From Dokdonia sp. (GTDB lineage Bacteria; Bacteroidota; Bacteroidia; Flavobacteriales; Flavobacteriaceae), in assembly GCA_023299935.1 (NCBI GenBank), contig JALZVV010000099.1, forward strand, positions 1-38,829: a stretch of DNA of 38,829 nucleotides, written 5' to 3'. The notes beneath the pieces were generated by a model. That model saw only the letters and a program-made list of their open reading frames with translations, did not search any database and was not told the origin of the DNA. Below, in pieces: positions 4,972 to 14,219 of the stretch (its first letter is position 1; every line of letters starts with the position of its first letter). The translations under genes were made by a program, and so were the position numbers.

Positions 4972-7086
4972 TTATTTTTCAATGAGTTTTAAAGCTTCAG
5001 TTACTGTTCTAACAGGGAGCTTACAAGCATTGTTTACACATACATAAATAAGGGTATTGTCTTCCAGATATCTACCTTCAAAAATCTCCTGCGAGCTTTG
5101 CGATTCTGAAGCGGCAATAAGTTTATTGGGCAGGTAAAAATCGTTGAGTTCTTTTAAGGTTGATTTTGCATTTTCACCTACAACAACAAGTTCGTAATAT
5201 GGCTGAGTGTAATTGAGCATCATATCCATCCAATTGCTATAACTGGTTGGGTATTTAGTCATATCTGCTTGTATGTTATTAAGCATAGTGGCAGCAGCAT
5301 CTGTATATTTCCTATCTAGGTAGTAATGCGATAGGGTAAAAATGTTTTTGGCCATTACAGAGTTTGACGCTGGAATTACATTATCTAAAAATTCTATATT
5401 TCTAGTTACTAGACTCGCATCTTCATCTGATGTGAAGTAAAACATAGCGTTCTCTTCATTTTGGAAGTGAACAAAGGTATAATCTGTAAGTTGCTTTGCT
5501 TCTTCCAACCAGGCACTGTCTGTTGTGATTTCAAACAAGGCAATAAAGGCGTCTATGGTAGCGGCATAGTCTTCAAGGTATGCATTAATGGTGCTTTTTC
5601 CATCTTTATACGTGCGATTGAGGCCACCATCATCGCGTTTCATTTTGGTTCGTATAAAGTTTGCATTTTTGAGTGCAGCCGTTAAGAAGGCTTCTTCTTG
5701 GAAAACGCGGTATGCATCTATATATGCCTTTGTCATAAGACCATTCCAGCCGGTAAGCACCTTATCATCGAGGCGAGGACGGGGTTTCTCGCTTTCGCGA
5801 AAGCGCAATAACACCTCTCCCCATTGTTTCTTTTTAATCTGGAATTCTTCAAGATACAGCCCGTGTTCTTTTACAAATGGCTCGTCTAAATCCTGACGGA
5901 TAAGTACATAATGATCTTTTTCCCATTTTCCATAGGAGTTAATATTGTAGTACTCTGCAAATAAATCAAAGTCCTTGTCTAATAGTTGCTCTAGCTCTTC
6001 TTTAGTCCAAACGTAATAGGCTCCTTCTTCTAATTTGCCTTCTTTATCTAAACTATCTGCATCTAATGCCGAATAAAATCCACCTTGTTCTGTAGTCATT
6101 TCACGAGCCACAAAGTCTAAGGTTTGATAGACAGTCTCTTTGTACAAGTTGTTTTGTGTAGCCAGATATGCATCACTATATAGGCTTACAAGCTGGGCGT
6201 TGTCATATAGCATTTTTTCAAAATGAGGAACGTGCCATTTTGTGTCTGTACTATACCTTGAGAACCCTCCTCCTACGTGATCATTAACCCCTCCAAAAGT
6301 AATTTGCTCAAGGGTGGTATTTACATAATCTAATATTTCCTGATCCTGATTTTGATGCCCATATCGTAATAAGAAGTGGTAGTTATTGGGCATCATGAAT
6401 TTAGGCGCTCTATTAAGACCGCCCTGCCTTGTATCCCAAGATCTTGCCCAGGATTCTATGGCAACTTGAAGGCTATCTTTTGTAAAACTGGGTTTATTGG
6501 GATTAGGTGTAACTATATCCATGGTTTTGATTCCCTCTTCTAGCTTATCTGCATACTCTACTAATTTATTAGGGTCTTCTTGATATAAATTAGCGATTTG
6601 CTCTAGAGAATTAATCCAATCGTCTTTTGGGAAATACGTGCCTCCCCAGATAGGACGTCCATCAGGAAGCGCAATAGCATTTAATGGCCAGCCTCCTCTT
6701 CCTGTCATAAGTTGTACTGCGTTCATATACACATTATCAACGTCTGGTCGTTCCTCCCGGTCAACTTTAATATTAATAAAATTATTATTCATAACACTAG
6801 CCACAAGAGAGTCTTCAAAACTTTCTTTTTCCATAACGTGACACCAGTGACAAGAGGAATATCCAACACTAATTAGCAGGAGTTTGTTTTGAGTTTTTGC
6901 TTCTTGCAATGATGTCTCACTCCAAGCTTTCCAGTCTACAGGATTGTGCGCATGTTGCAATAAGTAGGGACTCGTTTCATTAATTAGCTTATTAGTATGT
7001 GCGTGCATAGTATCATCATTTTGTCCTTTACAATTCCATAATAGAATTGCTAATAGTACTGCGAGTAGGAAACGACTTATTTTCAT
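4972..7086 (-). CDS. Thioredoxin-domain protein of the YyaL/SSP411 (DUF255) family, predicted lipoprotein
   Basis: A 704-residue protein, matching the full length of the YyaL/spermatogenesis-associated protein 20 family. After a short signal ([19 protein letters not shown]) with a lipobox-like Cys at residue 19, the family N-terminus appears ([20 protein letters not shown]). Next is a thioredoxin-like domain with a CHWC motif at residues 79-82 ([11 protein letters not shown]) and '[15 protein letters not shown]'. The remaining ~500 residues form an alpha/alpha-toroid of the six-hairpin glycosidase type ('[27 protein letters not shown]', '[13 protein letters not shown]'). The biochemical role of the family is not established. 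The lipoprotein signal would place this member in the envelope, although Asn just before the Cys is not a classical lipobox residue. The palindrome GCTTTCGCGAAAGC sits in frame at 5791-5804, encoding RFRES before the conserved [11 protein letters not shown] segment. Confidence 0.9.
5791..5804. repeat. GCTTTCGCGAAAGC palindrome, exact copy inside a CDS
   Basis: Perfect 14-bp palindrome, extended to 16 bp by C at 5790 and G at 5805. It lies in frame in the YyaL-type lipoprotein gene and encodes RFRES on the gene strand. Confidence 0.9.
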
Positions 7087-9901: not shown

Positions 9902-11059
9902 TTACTCCCAAGTATATTCTTTTTTTGTGGCTTGCTTCTTAATTGCGTCAAGCATTGCGTTACGTAACTCATTATCACTAGCTTTTTCTTTTGTGGCCAC
10001 ATAGTCAAGGCGCTTTTTATTAAGGGTAGCTATCTCTTTTTGTATTTGTTCGCGTTCTTGGCGTTTTGTTGCTACATATTGTTCGATTTCTTTAGTGGAT
10101 TTACCCTGTAATTCTTTTGGGAGAGAGGCTTGAGCGACATCTTCTAGATTCAGATTTTCTTCTTCAACTGCATCTACAAGATCCCAACTGCTGTTTTTGT
10201 AAAAGTGAGAACTCTTGCTCACAGCTCTTTTTACTGCATTTGCTTGACCGTATTGAGATGCATTATTATCCTGTTCTGTCTGCATAGCAGCTTTTGCTTT
10301 ACCTTGAATACCATAACGTACATAGGTCGCATTGAGTGCTCTATTCTTTTCTAAAATATGATCATCATAGGGAGAAGGAATGTGCACTGTTTGCTTGTCG
10401 TGATTGATGGCAATATAATCTCCTTGGGTAAGTCTAGCACCGTCTTTCCAATAGGTATTTGTACCTTGATTGTATTCACCACAGAAAATAGTATTTATGG
10501 TCACGTCCTTTGCGCAAGCATTACTGGCAGCATTTTTATAATCTACAGGACCTTGATTAAAAGCTTCGTTGCCAGCTATAAAAATAAGATTAAGATCATG
10601 TGCTCTTTCGCCCCAATTTAACTGGTTTAATGAGGTTTGTATTACCTGACCACAATATTCATTTCCACCATTTGTTGTAAGAGCAAACAACTGTCCGGAA
10701 ATTTCATCTAAGTCATTTGTAAAAGGGCTAACCTGTCGTATAAAACCTTCACGGGCATTCAATCTATCATTCCCATATTCATAGAGTGCGATTTGAAGGC
10801 TAGGTTGGACATCATTACCATACTTTGCATAAGACAACTCATTTACGAGTTCCCAAAGCTGTGCTTTTGCCTGGTCGATAAGGCCATCCATACTATTTGA
10901 GGTGTCTAAGAGGATGGCAACTTTTATAACATTGTTATCTGGATCTGAGTCCGCTTTCGCGAAAGCGTGTGCGTTAGAATCCATTGTAGTTTCATAATTT
11001 GTTGCGCCTAATACTGCGGTAGTGAATAGTGTTGTGATTGCGATTGCGATTGTTTTCAT
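9902..11059 (-). CDS. Secreted von Willebrand factor A (VWA) domain protein
   Basis: A 385-residue protein with signal peptide MKTIAIAITTLFTTAVLGA. The VWA domain begins at about residue 45 (VIKVAILLDTSNSMDG) with a MIDAS metal site D52-x-S54-x-S56. Conserved later parts include the TTNGGNEYCG and LIFIAGNEAFNQGP segments. The C-terminal 90 residues are charged and helical, possibly coiled coil (EIEQYVATKRQEREQIQKEI). No membrane anchor follows the domain, so it is probably periplasmic or released. VWA domains bind proteins or matrix through a divalent metal; the partner here is unknown. The palindrome at 10953-10966 encodes AFAKA (residues 32-36) in the linker between signal peptide and domain. 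The gene is divergent from the sensor kinase, with an array of 21-bp-phased repeats between them. Confidence 0.85.
   Translation of the reverse strand: MKTIAIAITTLFTTAVLGATNYETTMDSNAHAFAKADSDPDNNVIKVAILLDTSNSMDGLIDQAKAQLWELVNELSYAKYGNDVQPSLQIALYEYGNDRLNAREGFIRQVSPFTNDLDEISGQLFALTTNGGNEYCGQVIQTSLNQLNWGERAHDLNLIFIAGNEAFNQGPVDYKNAASNACAKDVTINTIFCGEYNQGTNTYWKDGARLTQGDYIAINHDKQTVHIPSPYDDHILEKNRALNATYVRYGIQGKAKAAMQTEQDNNASQYGQANAVKRAVSKSSHFYKNSSWDLVDAVEEENLNLEDVAQASLPKELQGKSTKEIEQYVATKRQEREQIQKEIATLNKKRLDYVATKEKASDNELRNAMLDAIKKQATKKEYTWE
10953..10966. repeat. GCTTTCGCGAAAGC palindrome, exact copy inside a CDS
   Basis: Perfect palindrome, 16 bp with the flanking C/G at 10952 and 10967. Encodes AFAKA in the linker of the VWA protein, a place where an insert should be tolerated. 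Confidence 0.9.
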
Positions 11060-11120
11060 AATATTTAAGTTTGATGAATTTTAAGTAAAAGTATTCCGAA
11101 ACGTGAGGTGTAGAAATATG

Positions 11121-11213
11121 GAATGAGGGAATGCTACATTTTAATGAGTAAAGTGTGCTTTGTAATGAGTAGTGCTATCTTTTTTGTGAGTAAAAAGGTC
11201 TATTTTAAGAGGG
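11121..11213 (+). promoter_or_regulatory. Array of 9-bp direct repeats at exact 21-bp steps, candidate LytTR regulator sites
   Basis: Five related 9-mers start at 11121 (GAATGAGGG), 11142 (TAATGAGTA), 11163 (TAATGAGTA), 11184 (TTGTGAGTA) and 11205 (TTAAGAGGG). Each step is exactly 21 bp, two helical turns, so all copies face the same side of the DNA. GAG at unit positions 5-7 and C at position 17 are the same in all five. LytTR-family regulators are known to bind pairs of 9-bp direct repeats separated by about 12 bp, which is this geometry, and the operon that follows encodes a LytTR regulator. The array ends 40 bp before the kinase -7 box and lies 62-154 bp upstream of the divergent VWA gene start. 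A sixth, weaker TGAGG at 11104 is out of step by one base. Confidence 0.65.
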
Positions 11214-11252
11214 ATTACATCCTACTCAATTTTTTTGCTGCAATTTTTGCAG

Positions 11253-11260
11253 TAAGTTTG
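11253..11260 (+). promoter_or_regulatory. -7 promoter box for the sensor kinase, giving an almost leaderless transcript
   Basis: TAAGTTTG matches TAnnTTTG. The last base is only 6 nt before ATG 11267, so the expected transcription start falls on or within 3 nt of the start codon. A TTTG at 11234-11237 is upstream, but at 15 bp rather than the usual ~19 bp. Confidence 0.5.
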
Positions 11261-11266
11261 GCCTAG

Positions 11267-13480
11267 ATGAAAAAATGTACATACATATATATTCTGTTAA
11301 TAATTGGATTGAGTTTAGCATTCCAATTACCTGCTCTTGCCCAGGAAAAGAATACATATCTAAAACGTTCTGAAACTCCACTTCTCACGATTAAAGGGAG
11401 TGTTCTAGATGTCCAAACCATGAGTCCTATATCTAAAGTTAATGTAGAGGTTAAAGGAGGAGATTATACCGCTACAAATGGAAGTGGTGATTTTACAATA
11501 AGAGCTAGAGTAGGAGATGAGCTTGTTATTAGAAATGCGGGTTTTGAAACAGTGTATTATACGATAACAGATACTGAACGTATACGCATTGAAGTGCATC
11601 CAGAAGCTTTAGAACTAGATGTAGAAGAGACTGTTTTAGATGATTTTGAACAAAGACAATTAAGCTTTGAAGATAATCTTGAATTAGGAAGGGTAAATTA
11701 TAAGAAGGACGCCGCTCAAGGATTGGATTACGTTGCCAATGCACTTGGAGATAAAACGATTTCTTCTCAGCAACGGGCAGAGGCCTTTGCTTTACTCGCA
11801 GAGATTTATTCGTATTGGAAGCAATATGATCTAGCAGTTACAAATTATAGATTAAGTCTTAGAGAATTTAGCTCATTAGACAGACAGATAGCGCTGGCAA
11901 AAACCTATCATCTCAACAAGAACTATCAGGAGAGTATTGAATTGTCAAGTACGATTTTTAAATCTAGACTACGATCTCCTATCAAAATGGAGGTACAAGA
12001 AAATCTAGGTGATAGTTATACGGCAACAGGTGATATAGCTAATGCTGAGAAGGTGTATCAAGCCTTGCTGGGTGAAGCTAAATCTCGAAATGATAGAACT
12101 ACTTCAACCAGAATTACAACAAAGTTGGCTAATTTATTTGCTAACTCTGGAGCGCAACAAAAAGCAAAATCTCTTTATGATGATGCTTTGGAAATATCTA
12201 ATCAAGAAGTTTCTGCAAATTCGGCTAAGGTAAAAGTTCAGGCAGCAGATTATTATAATAAAACTAAATCTTATGATGAAGAGATAGCATTGCGAAAAGA
12301 AGTTTTAAATAGTCTCAATGAAGCGGTTTTAGATTCTTTATCTAATGAAGAGCCGATCACTTCTCAAAAACAAAACTATAAGATTGCAAGTGCCTATGTC
12401 TCTAAAAAAGAGCTAGATGAAGCAATCCCCTTTTTTGAAAAGAGTATTGCAGAAGCAGCAGAAAGAGAGGATTTGATCGTCGAGAAAGACGCTACTAGAA
12501 GACTTTCGGAAGTTTTTAGGGATAAAGGAGATTTTGAATTAGCCATCGCTAGTCTTGAACGTTATCAGGAACTTGTAGATGAGAATTATATTCAAAAAGA
12601 ACAAGAATTAGCACAAGCAAGACGTTTTGGAAAAGAACTTGCCGAAAAGCAAAACCGTATTGCTAGTCTTGAGAAAGATAGAGCCCTCAATGAAAGTAGA
12701 TATCAACTGGCATTTAGGGATCAAGAATTAACAGACGGAAGAAACCTGCGTCAGAACATAATTATTGGGGCCTTAGCTTTGATTACCATAATGCTTTTGT
12801 TAACCGCTTTTGCTATGTATAGGAGCTCAAAGCAGCAAAAATATGCTAATAATCTGCTTGCTTTGAAGGGGCTTCGTTCTCAAATGAATCCTCACTTTAT
12901 TTTCAATGCCTTAAATTCTGTTAATAGCTTTATTGCCTCAAATGATGAACGAACTGCTAATAAGTATTTATCTGACTTTTCGATTTTAATGCGATCAGTT
13001 TTGGAGAATAGTGAAGAAGACTTTATTCCCTTATCTAAGGAGATTGAGCTTATCGAAAAATACGTTATGCTAGAACATTTTAGATTTAAAGACAAGTTTG
13101 AATATAGCTTGGAGATTGACCCAGATCTAGATGTTGAAGCCTTTGAGATTCCGCCTATGTTATTGCAGCCTTATGTGGAGAATGCTGTATGGCATGGCAT
13201 GCGTTATAAAGAAGAGAAAGGGTCGCTTAAGATAGAGTTCACACAAAAGGATACTGACACGGCAATAATTACGGTTACAGATGATGGAGTTGGGAGAACA
13301 AGAAGTAAGGAGCTAAAAACAGATAATCAAAAGAAACAAAAAAGTAAGGGTATGAGTAATATCAAAAAACGTATATCCATACTTAATGAGATGTATGGAG
13401 ATAGGGTAGATGTTGCGATTTCTGATGTATATACTACTGGAGAGGGGACTAAAGTTTCACTTACCATAAAAAAGGACTAA
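11267..13480 (+). CDS. TPR-containing LytS-type sensor histidine kinase
   Basis: A 737-residue sensor. The order is: signal peptide (MKKCTYIYILLIIGLSLAFQ...), a carboxypeptidase-regulatory-like Ig domain (about 40-110; LTIKGSVLDVQTMSPISKVNV), TPR repeats (about 140-440), a coiled coil, one membrane helix (about 497-519) and a cytoplasmic kinase of the LytS/YehU class (His_kinase, PF06580). The phospho-acceptor is His543 in SQMNPHFIFNALNS. The ATP-binding part shows LLQPYVENAVWHGM and DDGVGRTRSKELK. The sensing region is thus placed in the periplasm. The regulator gene starts one base after its stop. This architecture is common in Bacteroidota; the ligand is unknown. Signal peptide position supports ATG 11267 despite the lack of a leader. 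Confidence 0.93.
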   Translation: MKKCTYIYILLIIGLSLAFQLPALAQEKNTYLKRSETPLLTIKGSVLDVQTMSPISKVNVEVKGGDYTATNGSGDFTIRARVGDELVIRNAGFETVYYTITDTERIRIEVHPEALELDVEETVLDDFEQRQLSFEDNLELGRVNYKKDAAQGLDYVANALGDKTISSQQRAEAFALLAEIYSYWKQYDLAVTNYRLSLREFSSLDRQIALAKTYHLNKNYQESIELSSTIFKSRLRSPIKMEVQENLGDSYTATGDIANAEKVYQALLGEAKSRNDRTTSTRITTKLANLFANSGAQQKAKSLYDDALEISNQEVSANSAKVKVQAADYYNKTKSYDEEIALRKEVLNSLNEAVLDSLSNEEPITSQKQNYKIASAYVSKKELDEAIPFFEKSIAEAAEREDLIVEKDATRRLSEVFRDKGDFELAIASLERYQELVDENYIQKEQELAQARRFGKELAEKQNRIASLEKDRALNESRYQLAFRDQELTDGRNLRQNIIIGALALITIMLLLTAFAMYRSSKQQKYANNLLALKGLRSQMNPHFIFNALNSVNSFIASNDERTANKYLSDFSILMRSVLENSEEDFIPLSKEIELIEKYVMLEHFRFKDKFEYSLEIDPDLDVEAFEIPPMLLQPYVENAVWHGMRYKEEKGSLKIEFTQKDTDTAIITVTDDGVGRTRSKELKTDNQKKQKSKGMSNIKKRISILNEMYGDRVDVAISDVYTTGEGTKVSLTIKKD

Positions 13481-13481
13481 A

Positions 13482-14219
13482 ATGAATACATTAAAAACCA
13501 TTATTGTAGAAGATGAGAAAACGAGTAGAGATACATTACATAATTATCTTAAAAAATACTGTCCTCAAGTAGAACTTGTGGGCGAAGCAGAGAACATCGC
13601 TCAAGGTCTTGAATTGATCAGAAATCATAAGCTAGATCTTGTCTTCTTAGATGTAGAAATGCCACACGGGAATGCTTTTGATTTACTAGAGCAAGTAGGT
13701 GATCGTTCCTTTGAAACTGTTTTTGTTACTGCTTACAATCAATATGCCATAGAGGCCTTAAATACCCACGCTTCCTATTATATATTAAAACCTGTGTCTA
13801 TTGATGAGCTAATCAAAGCGGTGGATTATGTTGCCGCAATAAAGAAAAAAGAGATAGCTCTTGAAAATAAAGTGCTCACTACTAATACTGCTCAAAAACA
13901 AGGTAAAATTACGCTGCCAGTACAAGATGGATTTGAGGTTATTGCCGCAGAAGATATTCTCTATTGCCAGGCAGATGATAATTATACTCAAATCTTCCTG
14001 AAAGAAGGCAAGAAAAAATTAATTAGTAAGACGCTTAAGTATTTTGAAGAGGCCTTAACCGATTTTGGCTTTGCTAGAGTACATAAATCTTACCTAGTTA
14101 ATGTAGATCAAATTACTGGGTATAAAAAAGGTAAAGGAGGTTCTGTAGTCTTGAGCAATGGAAAAGAAGTAATGGTTTCTGCTAGCCAAAAGGCTAATTT
14201 ACTTGCGCATTTTAAATAG
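13482..14219 (+). CDS. LytTR family response regulator
   Basis: A 245-residue protein with an N-terminal receiver domain (1-125) and a C-terminal LytTR DNA-binding domain (about 145-244). Receiver landmarks are the acidic pair in IIVEDEKTS, the phospho-acceptor Asp57 in LVFLDVEMP, the Thr in VFVTAYNQYA, and the YILKP lysine. The LytTR part shows 'ILYCQADDNYTQIFL' and 'FARVHKSYLVNVDQI', both typical. One base separates it from the kinase gene, so they form a cognate pair. LytTR proteins usually bind two 9-bp direct repeats spaced 12-13 bp, which fits the array at 11121-11213 and suggests autoregulation. Its stop codon directly abuts the murI stop codon on the other strand; no terminator is visible between them. 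Confidence 0.95.
   Translation: MNTLKTIIVEDEKTSRDTLHNYLKKYCPQVELVGEAENIAQGLELIRNHKLDLVFLDVEMPHGNAFDLLEQVGDRSFETVFVTAYNQYAIEALNTHASYYILKPVSIDELIKAVDYVAAIKKKEIALENKVLTTNTAQKQGKITLPVQDGFEVIAAEDILYCQADDNYTQIFLKEGKKKLISKTLKYFEEALTDFGFARVHKSYLVNVDQITGYKKGKGGSVVLSNGKEVMVSASQKANLLAHFK

Follow-up and report, generated by a model that had tools for sequence, protein, structure and literature searches.

A probable LytTR operator array between a VWA gene and a kinase/regulator operon of Dokdonia sp., with similar sites across Flavobacteriaceae

Arrays of direct repeats that serve as LytTR operators are already known as a kind. AgrA/ComE-type sites of Firmicutes are 9-bp direct repeats with 12–13 bp spacers, the half-site of BtsR ends in CTCA and recurs at a 21-bp step, and LytTR Regulatory Systems pair the regulator with a membrane protein and have no histidine kinase. 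According to excerpts of PMC6193735, the repeats of HdrR/BrsR and other LytTR Regulatory Systems of Streptococcus mutans are mostly 12 bp apart and lie immediately upstream of the −35 element, repeats also occur upstream of the regulator's own operon, and activating LytTR sites tend to lie about 10 bp upstream of −35. Excerpts of PMC11347149 describe three repeats at 18–21 bp for CoxC and spacers of 12–13 bp for RcoM1. BtsS/BtsR of gamma-proteobacteria is a LytS/LytTR two-component system, in which a LytTR response regulator acts with a kinase (excerpts of PMC5552118).

Here we examined a locus of Dokdonia sp. in which an array of short direct repeats sits between a kinase/LytTR operon (11267–14219) and a divergent VWA gene. 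The window, that is the whole stretch of 38,829 nucleotides analysed, is contig C99 of a 2.6-Mb assembly with a completeness of 85%. The genes at the locus are the following.

9902 to 11059, minus strand: gene of a VWA-domain protein (PF00092) of 385 aa, divergent from the operon and judged by eye to be secreted; putative main local target of the array
11267 to 13480, plus strand: sensor kinase gene, with CarboxypepD_reg-like, TPR, His_kinase (PF06580) and HATPase domains
13482 to 14219, plus strand: LytTR response regulator gene, with Response_reg and LytTR (PF04397) domains; putative binder of the array, co-occurring with the sites

The CarboxypepD_reg-like domain and TPR repeats of the kinase are preceded by an apparent signal peptide. 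With its His_kinase and HATPase domains, this partner differs from the membrane inhibitor of LytTR Regulatory Systems, which come without a kinase. The system shares with BtsS/BtsR the pairing of a LytTR response regulator with a kinase; however, among NCBIfam families the window regulator matched BtsR (NF008677) best, with 119.5 bits, far below the family cut-off of 246, which places it outside the BtsR equivalog, and its putative targets and phylum are different. The nearest named relatives of the regulator are from Dokdonia, and in a structure search with its DNA-binding half only 3d6w (E 5e-4) surfaced as a credible relative. The code TTYMCTMA (= TKAGKRAA) described below presumably does not fit the AgrA/ComE consensus beyond a partial GTT core. 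As in the S. mutans systems, repeats are found upstream of the regulator's own operon, but three conserved units in a common divergent region replace the repeat pair of HdrR/BrsR-type systems (excerpts of PMC6193735). RcoM1 and CoxC resemble the present case in that a LytTR domain reads three direct repeats about two helical turns apart; they differ in repeat sequence (TTCNNGCA / TTNNNGCN), and CoxC, unlike the window system, holds sensor and DNA-binding domain in one protein (excerpts of PMC11347149).

Five 9-mers start at 11121, 11142, 11163, 11184 and 11205, at exact 21-bp steps, as a sequence-only reading of the window had proposed, and GAG at unit positions 5–7 and C at position 17 are present in all five. 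The five-copy lag score of 66 was the highest in the window among steps of 11–45 bp, and no dinucleotide shuffle reached it, neither for the whole window (0/300, all 11–45 bp steps) nor for the intergenic region (0/2000, step 21); chance repeats were rejected on these shuffles. With a matrix built from sites elsewhere, units 1, 2 and 4 were strong (14.2, 11.4 and 11.4 bits) and units 3 and 5 weak (−3.0 and −0.9). The unit cores are located as follows.

11124 to 11131, plus strand: unit 1, TGAGGGAA (in the sense of the VWA gene TTCCCTCA); strong, within one mismatch in 67 of 90 relatives, separated by 30 bp from the predicted −7 box of the VWA gene
11145 to 11152, plus strand: unit 2, TGAGTAAA; strong, within one mismatch in 85 of 90 relatives
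11166 to 11173, plus strand: unit 3, TGAGTAGT; degenerate in the window, its position conserved in the family (71 of 90)
11187 to 11194, plus strand: unit 4, TGAGTAAA; strong in the window, rare in relatives (3 of 90)
11208 to 11215, plus strand: unit 5, AAGAGGGA; weak, rare in relatives (1 of 90)

Conservation of the array was examined in Flavobacteriaceae, where 94 of 118 kinase-upstream loci were retained after removal of 8 duplicates and exclusion of 16 further loci (kinase match absent at E 1e-30, open 5′ end, missing ATG or less than 250 bp upstream). A motif model with free spacers and no imposed periodicity, seeded with a single Dokdonia region (L013) and placing one array per sequence by construction, converged on three T[GT]AG[GT][AG]AA units at 21-bp steps with variable spacers. 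This conserved core takes the place of the unit sequence TAATGAGTA that the sequence-only reading had given. Column similarity across the upstream regions peaked at lags 21 (0.40) and 42 (0.37), the remaining lags giving 0.23–0.32. Under the three-unit model, 90 of the 94 regions scored above 15, a cut-off chosen after inspection of the scores (the lowest retained was 18.6, and the four rejected had 9.7, 2.7, −0.6 and −9.6). All of units 1–3 were found within one mismatch in 49 of these 90 loci, two in 35 and one in 6, thus at least two in 84, at a chance rate of about 0.004 per position for a unit, as measured beside off-locus sites. Counted in the same way, units 1–5 were present in 67, 85, 71, 3 and 1 loci, and the five phased sites proposed at first were cut to three on account of these counts and of the weak units 3 and 5 of the window. 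The 21-bp phasing is kept in relatives. C at position 17 had to be given up as invariant, being only mildly preferred in the family (C frequency 0.36–0.48 vs a background of 0.13). One locus below the cut-off (L048) has an exact unit pair 262 bp farther upstream.

The repeats are real and resemble a conserved operator. Periodicity arising by chance, or a minisatellite in decay, without any regulatory function could account for the imperfection of units 3 and 5, and a tandem run of almost perfect 21-bp units found in a different genome (G066, C1:605112-605308) indicates that minisatellites matching the pattern can arise; nevertheless, the shuffles, the conservation of units but not of spacers, and the fixed register with promoter boxes described next leave this explanation a negligible probability.

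The array is flanked by predicted elements of two divergent promoters.

11086 to 11093, minus strand: predicted −7 box of the VWA gene (L129), which reads TACTTTTA in gene sense and has its start at exactly +30 relative to unit 1
11114 to 11116, minus strand: T-rich element of −33 type in the VWA promoter, with TTT occupying gene-sense positions +7 to +9, assigned by eye and matching the column profile of other putative targets
11230 to 11237, plus strand: T-rich TTTG, −33-like element of the kinase operon promoter, assigned by eye
11253 to 11260, plus strand: predicted −7 box of the kinase/regulator operon, TAAGTTTG, +79 from the end of unit 3 and 14 bp before the kinase ATG

Sigma-A promoters of a Flavobacterium have the −7 consensus TAnnTTTG (excerpts of PMC9723704). 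On the VWA side, 83 of the 90 loci have a TAnnTTT box whose start is exactly 30 bp away from unit 1; six loci lack a box at +28 to +33, and in four of them (L036, L070, L072 and L114) the VWA gene was not found either. A divergent VWA homologue was identified upstream in 85 of the 94 loci. Among the nine loci where it was not found, L037 and L038 are only distantly related, and L036 and L064 have little upstream DNA. TAnGTTT was detected on the kinase side in 77 of the 90 loci, 69 bp from unit 3 in 51 of them and 79 bp in 17, two distances that differ by one helical turn; 4, 3, 1 and 1 loci have it at 78, 75, 51 and 1 bp, and 13 loci have no TAnGTTT.

We then considered the sites elsewhere in the genomes. 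The pair TKAGKRAA-N13-TKAGKRAA matched 92 times in 18 Dokdonia genomes vs 14 times in the reversed control (7 vs 0 in the own genome), any three-unit array being counted twice, so that distinct arrays are fewer. With the step reduced to 20 bp (12-base spacer) there were 2 matches vs 6 in the control. Paired sites at 21 bp recur genome-wide. Direct repeats of 8–9 bp with 10–13 bp spacers, about two helical turns from one to the next, are the general form of LytTR operators, and both the array and the genome-wide pairs follow it with their 21-bp step. When two mismatches were allowed, no enrichment was seen in the own genome (175 matches vs 246 in the control).

Of 115 distinct sites, 91 lie outside open frames of at least 150 codons; for 80 of the 91 an ORF begins on the opposite strand, in 48 cases 50–66 bp away. 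With 11 home, 23 in-frame and 16 TTAG-TTAG sites set aside, 65 intergenic sites away from the home locus remained, all containing TGAG. At 59 of them an ORF of 100 aa or more starts within 180 bp on the opposite strand, and at 11 on the same strand, as called from mechanical ORFs. TAnnTTT was found at exactly +30 on the gene side of 48 of the 65 sites and on the other side of none (0/65). The share was 39/48 for Dokdonia sites, many of which represent the same promoter in several species and are not independent, and 9/17 for other genera. Of 16 places in the own genome that match with ≤1 mismatch, six have the +30 box (L129, L149, L150, L151, L157 and L160). In gene sense, the end of TTYMCTMA-N13-TTYMCTMA is followed after about 7 bp by a T-rich stretch and after 30 bp by the −7 box; the T-rich columns, +7 to +10, come from a profile of 46 sites pre-selected for a gene start 50–66 bp away. 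The site therefore lies just upstream of the −35/−33 region of the predicted promoters. A third unit is nearly confined to the home locus, with 2 distal and 1 proximal cases among the 65 off-locus sites. The array appears to be one among the sites of a regulon, not a device of this locus alone.

The largest recurrent target group comprises 34 heterogeneous proteins, many with a CarboxypepD_reg-like start as judged by eye, and is held together by BLAST links that arise at least partly from the common CarboxypepD_reg domain, not by orthology. Other recurrent targets are VWA proteins, DUF6146-like lipoproteins (7), A2M-like (4) and VIT-like (2) proteins, and a protein of 210–237 aa (5) whose gene adjoins a sigma-factor-like gene in the own genome; the labels A2M-like, VIT-like, sigma-factor and secreted were assigned by eye. 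Pfam identified DUF6146 in L149 and CarboxypepD_reg with VWA in L130, and gave no match for L150, L151 and L152, the last covered only partly.

Register and orientation at the home locus match those of the other putative target promoters, which argues for the divergent VWA gene as the canonical target. The sequence-only reading had the array controlling its own operon and possibly the VWA gene; the second part gained from these data, while the operon is the less certain target. Autoregulation is possible, and we give it about an even chance: the third unit is nearly confined to the home locus and the distance to the divergent kinase promoter is almost fixed, which suggests that the kinase/regulator operon, too, is tuned by the array. 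It could even be that the array serves only this autoregulation and that the VWA register just follows from the compactness of the divergent region, since the array is kept in L070, L072, L108 and L114, whose available upstream DNA showed no VWA gene, and the kinase −7 box keeps the two preferred distances given above. That is very unlikely, as the +30 register recurs at 48 of the 65 putative target promoters elsewhere, and in L053, L056, L113 and L117, where another gene comes before the VWA gene, the array is 59–71 bp from the start of that gene; L111 has its first in-frame ATG at +20, and L048 is an exception with its pair located elsewhere. Moreover, L090, the rejected locus with a score of 9.7 and no VWA gene found, has a degraded array, which speaks against a strong second role at the kinase operon.

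An orthologue of the regulator (E ≤ 1e-70) was detected in 83 of 149 family genomes. Pair matches numbered 205 (reversed control 66) in these 83 genomes and 26 (control 57) in the 66 genomes without it, counts which include TTAG-TTAG sites ascribed to a sister system. After removal of home-locus matches (within about 5 kb, among the matches listed, the tandem matches of G066 counted as one), 108 matches remained in 57 resolved genomes (mean 1.9) vs 26 in the 66 genomes without the regulator (mean 0.39). With home matches read place by place, the difference between the 57 and 66 genomes has p = 3e-9, and p = 9e-8 when lower bounds for the other 26 regulator-bearing genomes are added, kinship being ignored in both; the genomes without the regulator are also phylogenetically distinct. 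A crude correction, in which 2 matches were subtracted per regulator-bearing genome, gave p = 0.08, but it over-corrects because many home arrays are inexact matches. The sites thus co-occur with the LytTR regulator encoded beside them, kinship ignored. The reading that any LytTR protein binds them was weakened by the genomes without this regulator, where matches did not exceed the control.

Taken together, the array is probably the operator of the neighbouring LytTR regulator (13482–14219), our confidence being slightly lowered because the share of sites with the +30 box is weaker outside Dokdonia. Comparative genomics gives good support to the core of the sequence-only reading, a LytTR operator array whose specificity presumably differs from the AgrA/ComE consensus. 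Binding mainly by another paralogue, or by several with overlapping specificity, is unlikely. The own genome holds 13 further matches to the regulator at E ≤ 0.001, of which seven have E values of about 6e-18 or lower, and some of the sites could therefore be bound by a paralogue; a related class, TTAGTGAA-N13-TTAGTGAA, is found in or beside the genes for another LytTR-type regulator (L153, L196 and L242); on the other hand, site counts track the orthologue of this regulator, and the array is present at this operon in 90 of 94 regions.

The TTAGTGAA-N13-TTAGTGAA (TTAG-TTAG) class has TAnnTTT at 28–32 in 11 of 16 sites and exactly at +30 in 3 of 16. In L131, L195 and L199 its sites are 91–95 bp before a gene, one of which encodes a 'GRDWYVSKTTG' protein. 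The class probably belongs to a sister LytTR system that uses a similar code.

If the neighbouring regulator is the binder, each 8–9 bp unit (TTYMCTMA in gene sense) would be bound by one LytTR domain, and the exact 21-bp step would set neighbouring monomers on one face of the helix. The kinase would activate the regulator, which would then occupy units 1–3 just upstream of the VWA −33 region and recruit RNA polymerase. A two-unit site at the same position would activate a regulon of mostly secreted proteins, proposed to include VWA proteins, CarboxypepD_reg proteins with VWA, DUF6146 lipoproteins, and, by eye, A2M-like and VIT-like proteins. The location just upstream of a T-rich stretch, as in activating LytTR sites, favours activation of the VWA gene and the regulon. 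The LytTR protein CoxC, whose operator has three direct repeats, acts as a repressor (excerpts of PMC11347149), and the present regulator might likewise repress from these sites; this is improbable, since the CoxC operator overlaps the −35 box, whereas the present site stops short of the −33 region (first strong T column at +7), in the position of the activating LytTR sites described in excerpts of PMC6193735. We find it fairly probable that the system as a whole is an envelope-signalling regulon of Flavobacteriaceae, in which a CarboxypepD_reg/TPR kinase and a LytTR regulator use the TTYMCTMA/21-bp code for the joint induction of secreted VWA, CarboxypepD_reg, A2M-like and VIT-like proteins, and in which the three-unit array serves two divergent promoters in helical register.

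Among the open-access titles and abstracts listed, none described a LytTR operator or regulon in Bacteroidetes, and this operator code, an array in register with two divergent promoters and the regulon were not found among the open-access literature matches listed; in the main text of PMC9723704 the word LytTR is absent. If the proposed operator and regulon hold, they would provide an operator code that can be used at once, together with a candidate regulator and a list of target genes to test in a large marine family, and would connect several uncharacterised VWA and CarboxypepD_reg proteins through a common signal. The −7 box at one exact distance would allow simple target prediction in new genomes.

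Some minor observations were also made. The run in G066 (L223) consists of 21-bp units in which the operator pattern matched seven times, nearly in tandem and apparently in an open frame; it is likely a minisatellite. A palindrome, GCTTTCGCGAAAGC, has 385 copies in the 2.6-Mb genome (reversed control 0), about 1 per 6.8 kb, and is located in the window at 5791, 8513, 10953, 20840, 29638 and 34235. We take it to resemble a HIP1-type genome signature, and an open-access literature search found no paper on this 14-mer. Among 89 candidate targets, 8 carry AFAKA in their first 60 residues, close behind an apparent signal peptide, namely the window VWA gene, L119, L125, L126, L143, L145, L148 and L204. 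In the window VWA gene, the AFAKA stretch is encoded by a copy of the palindrome (10953–10966).
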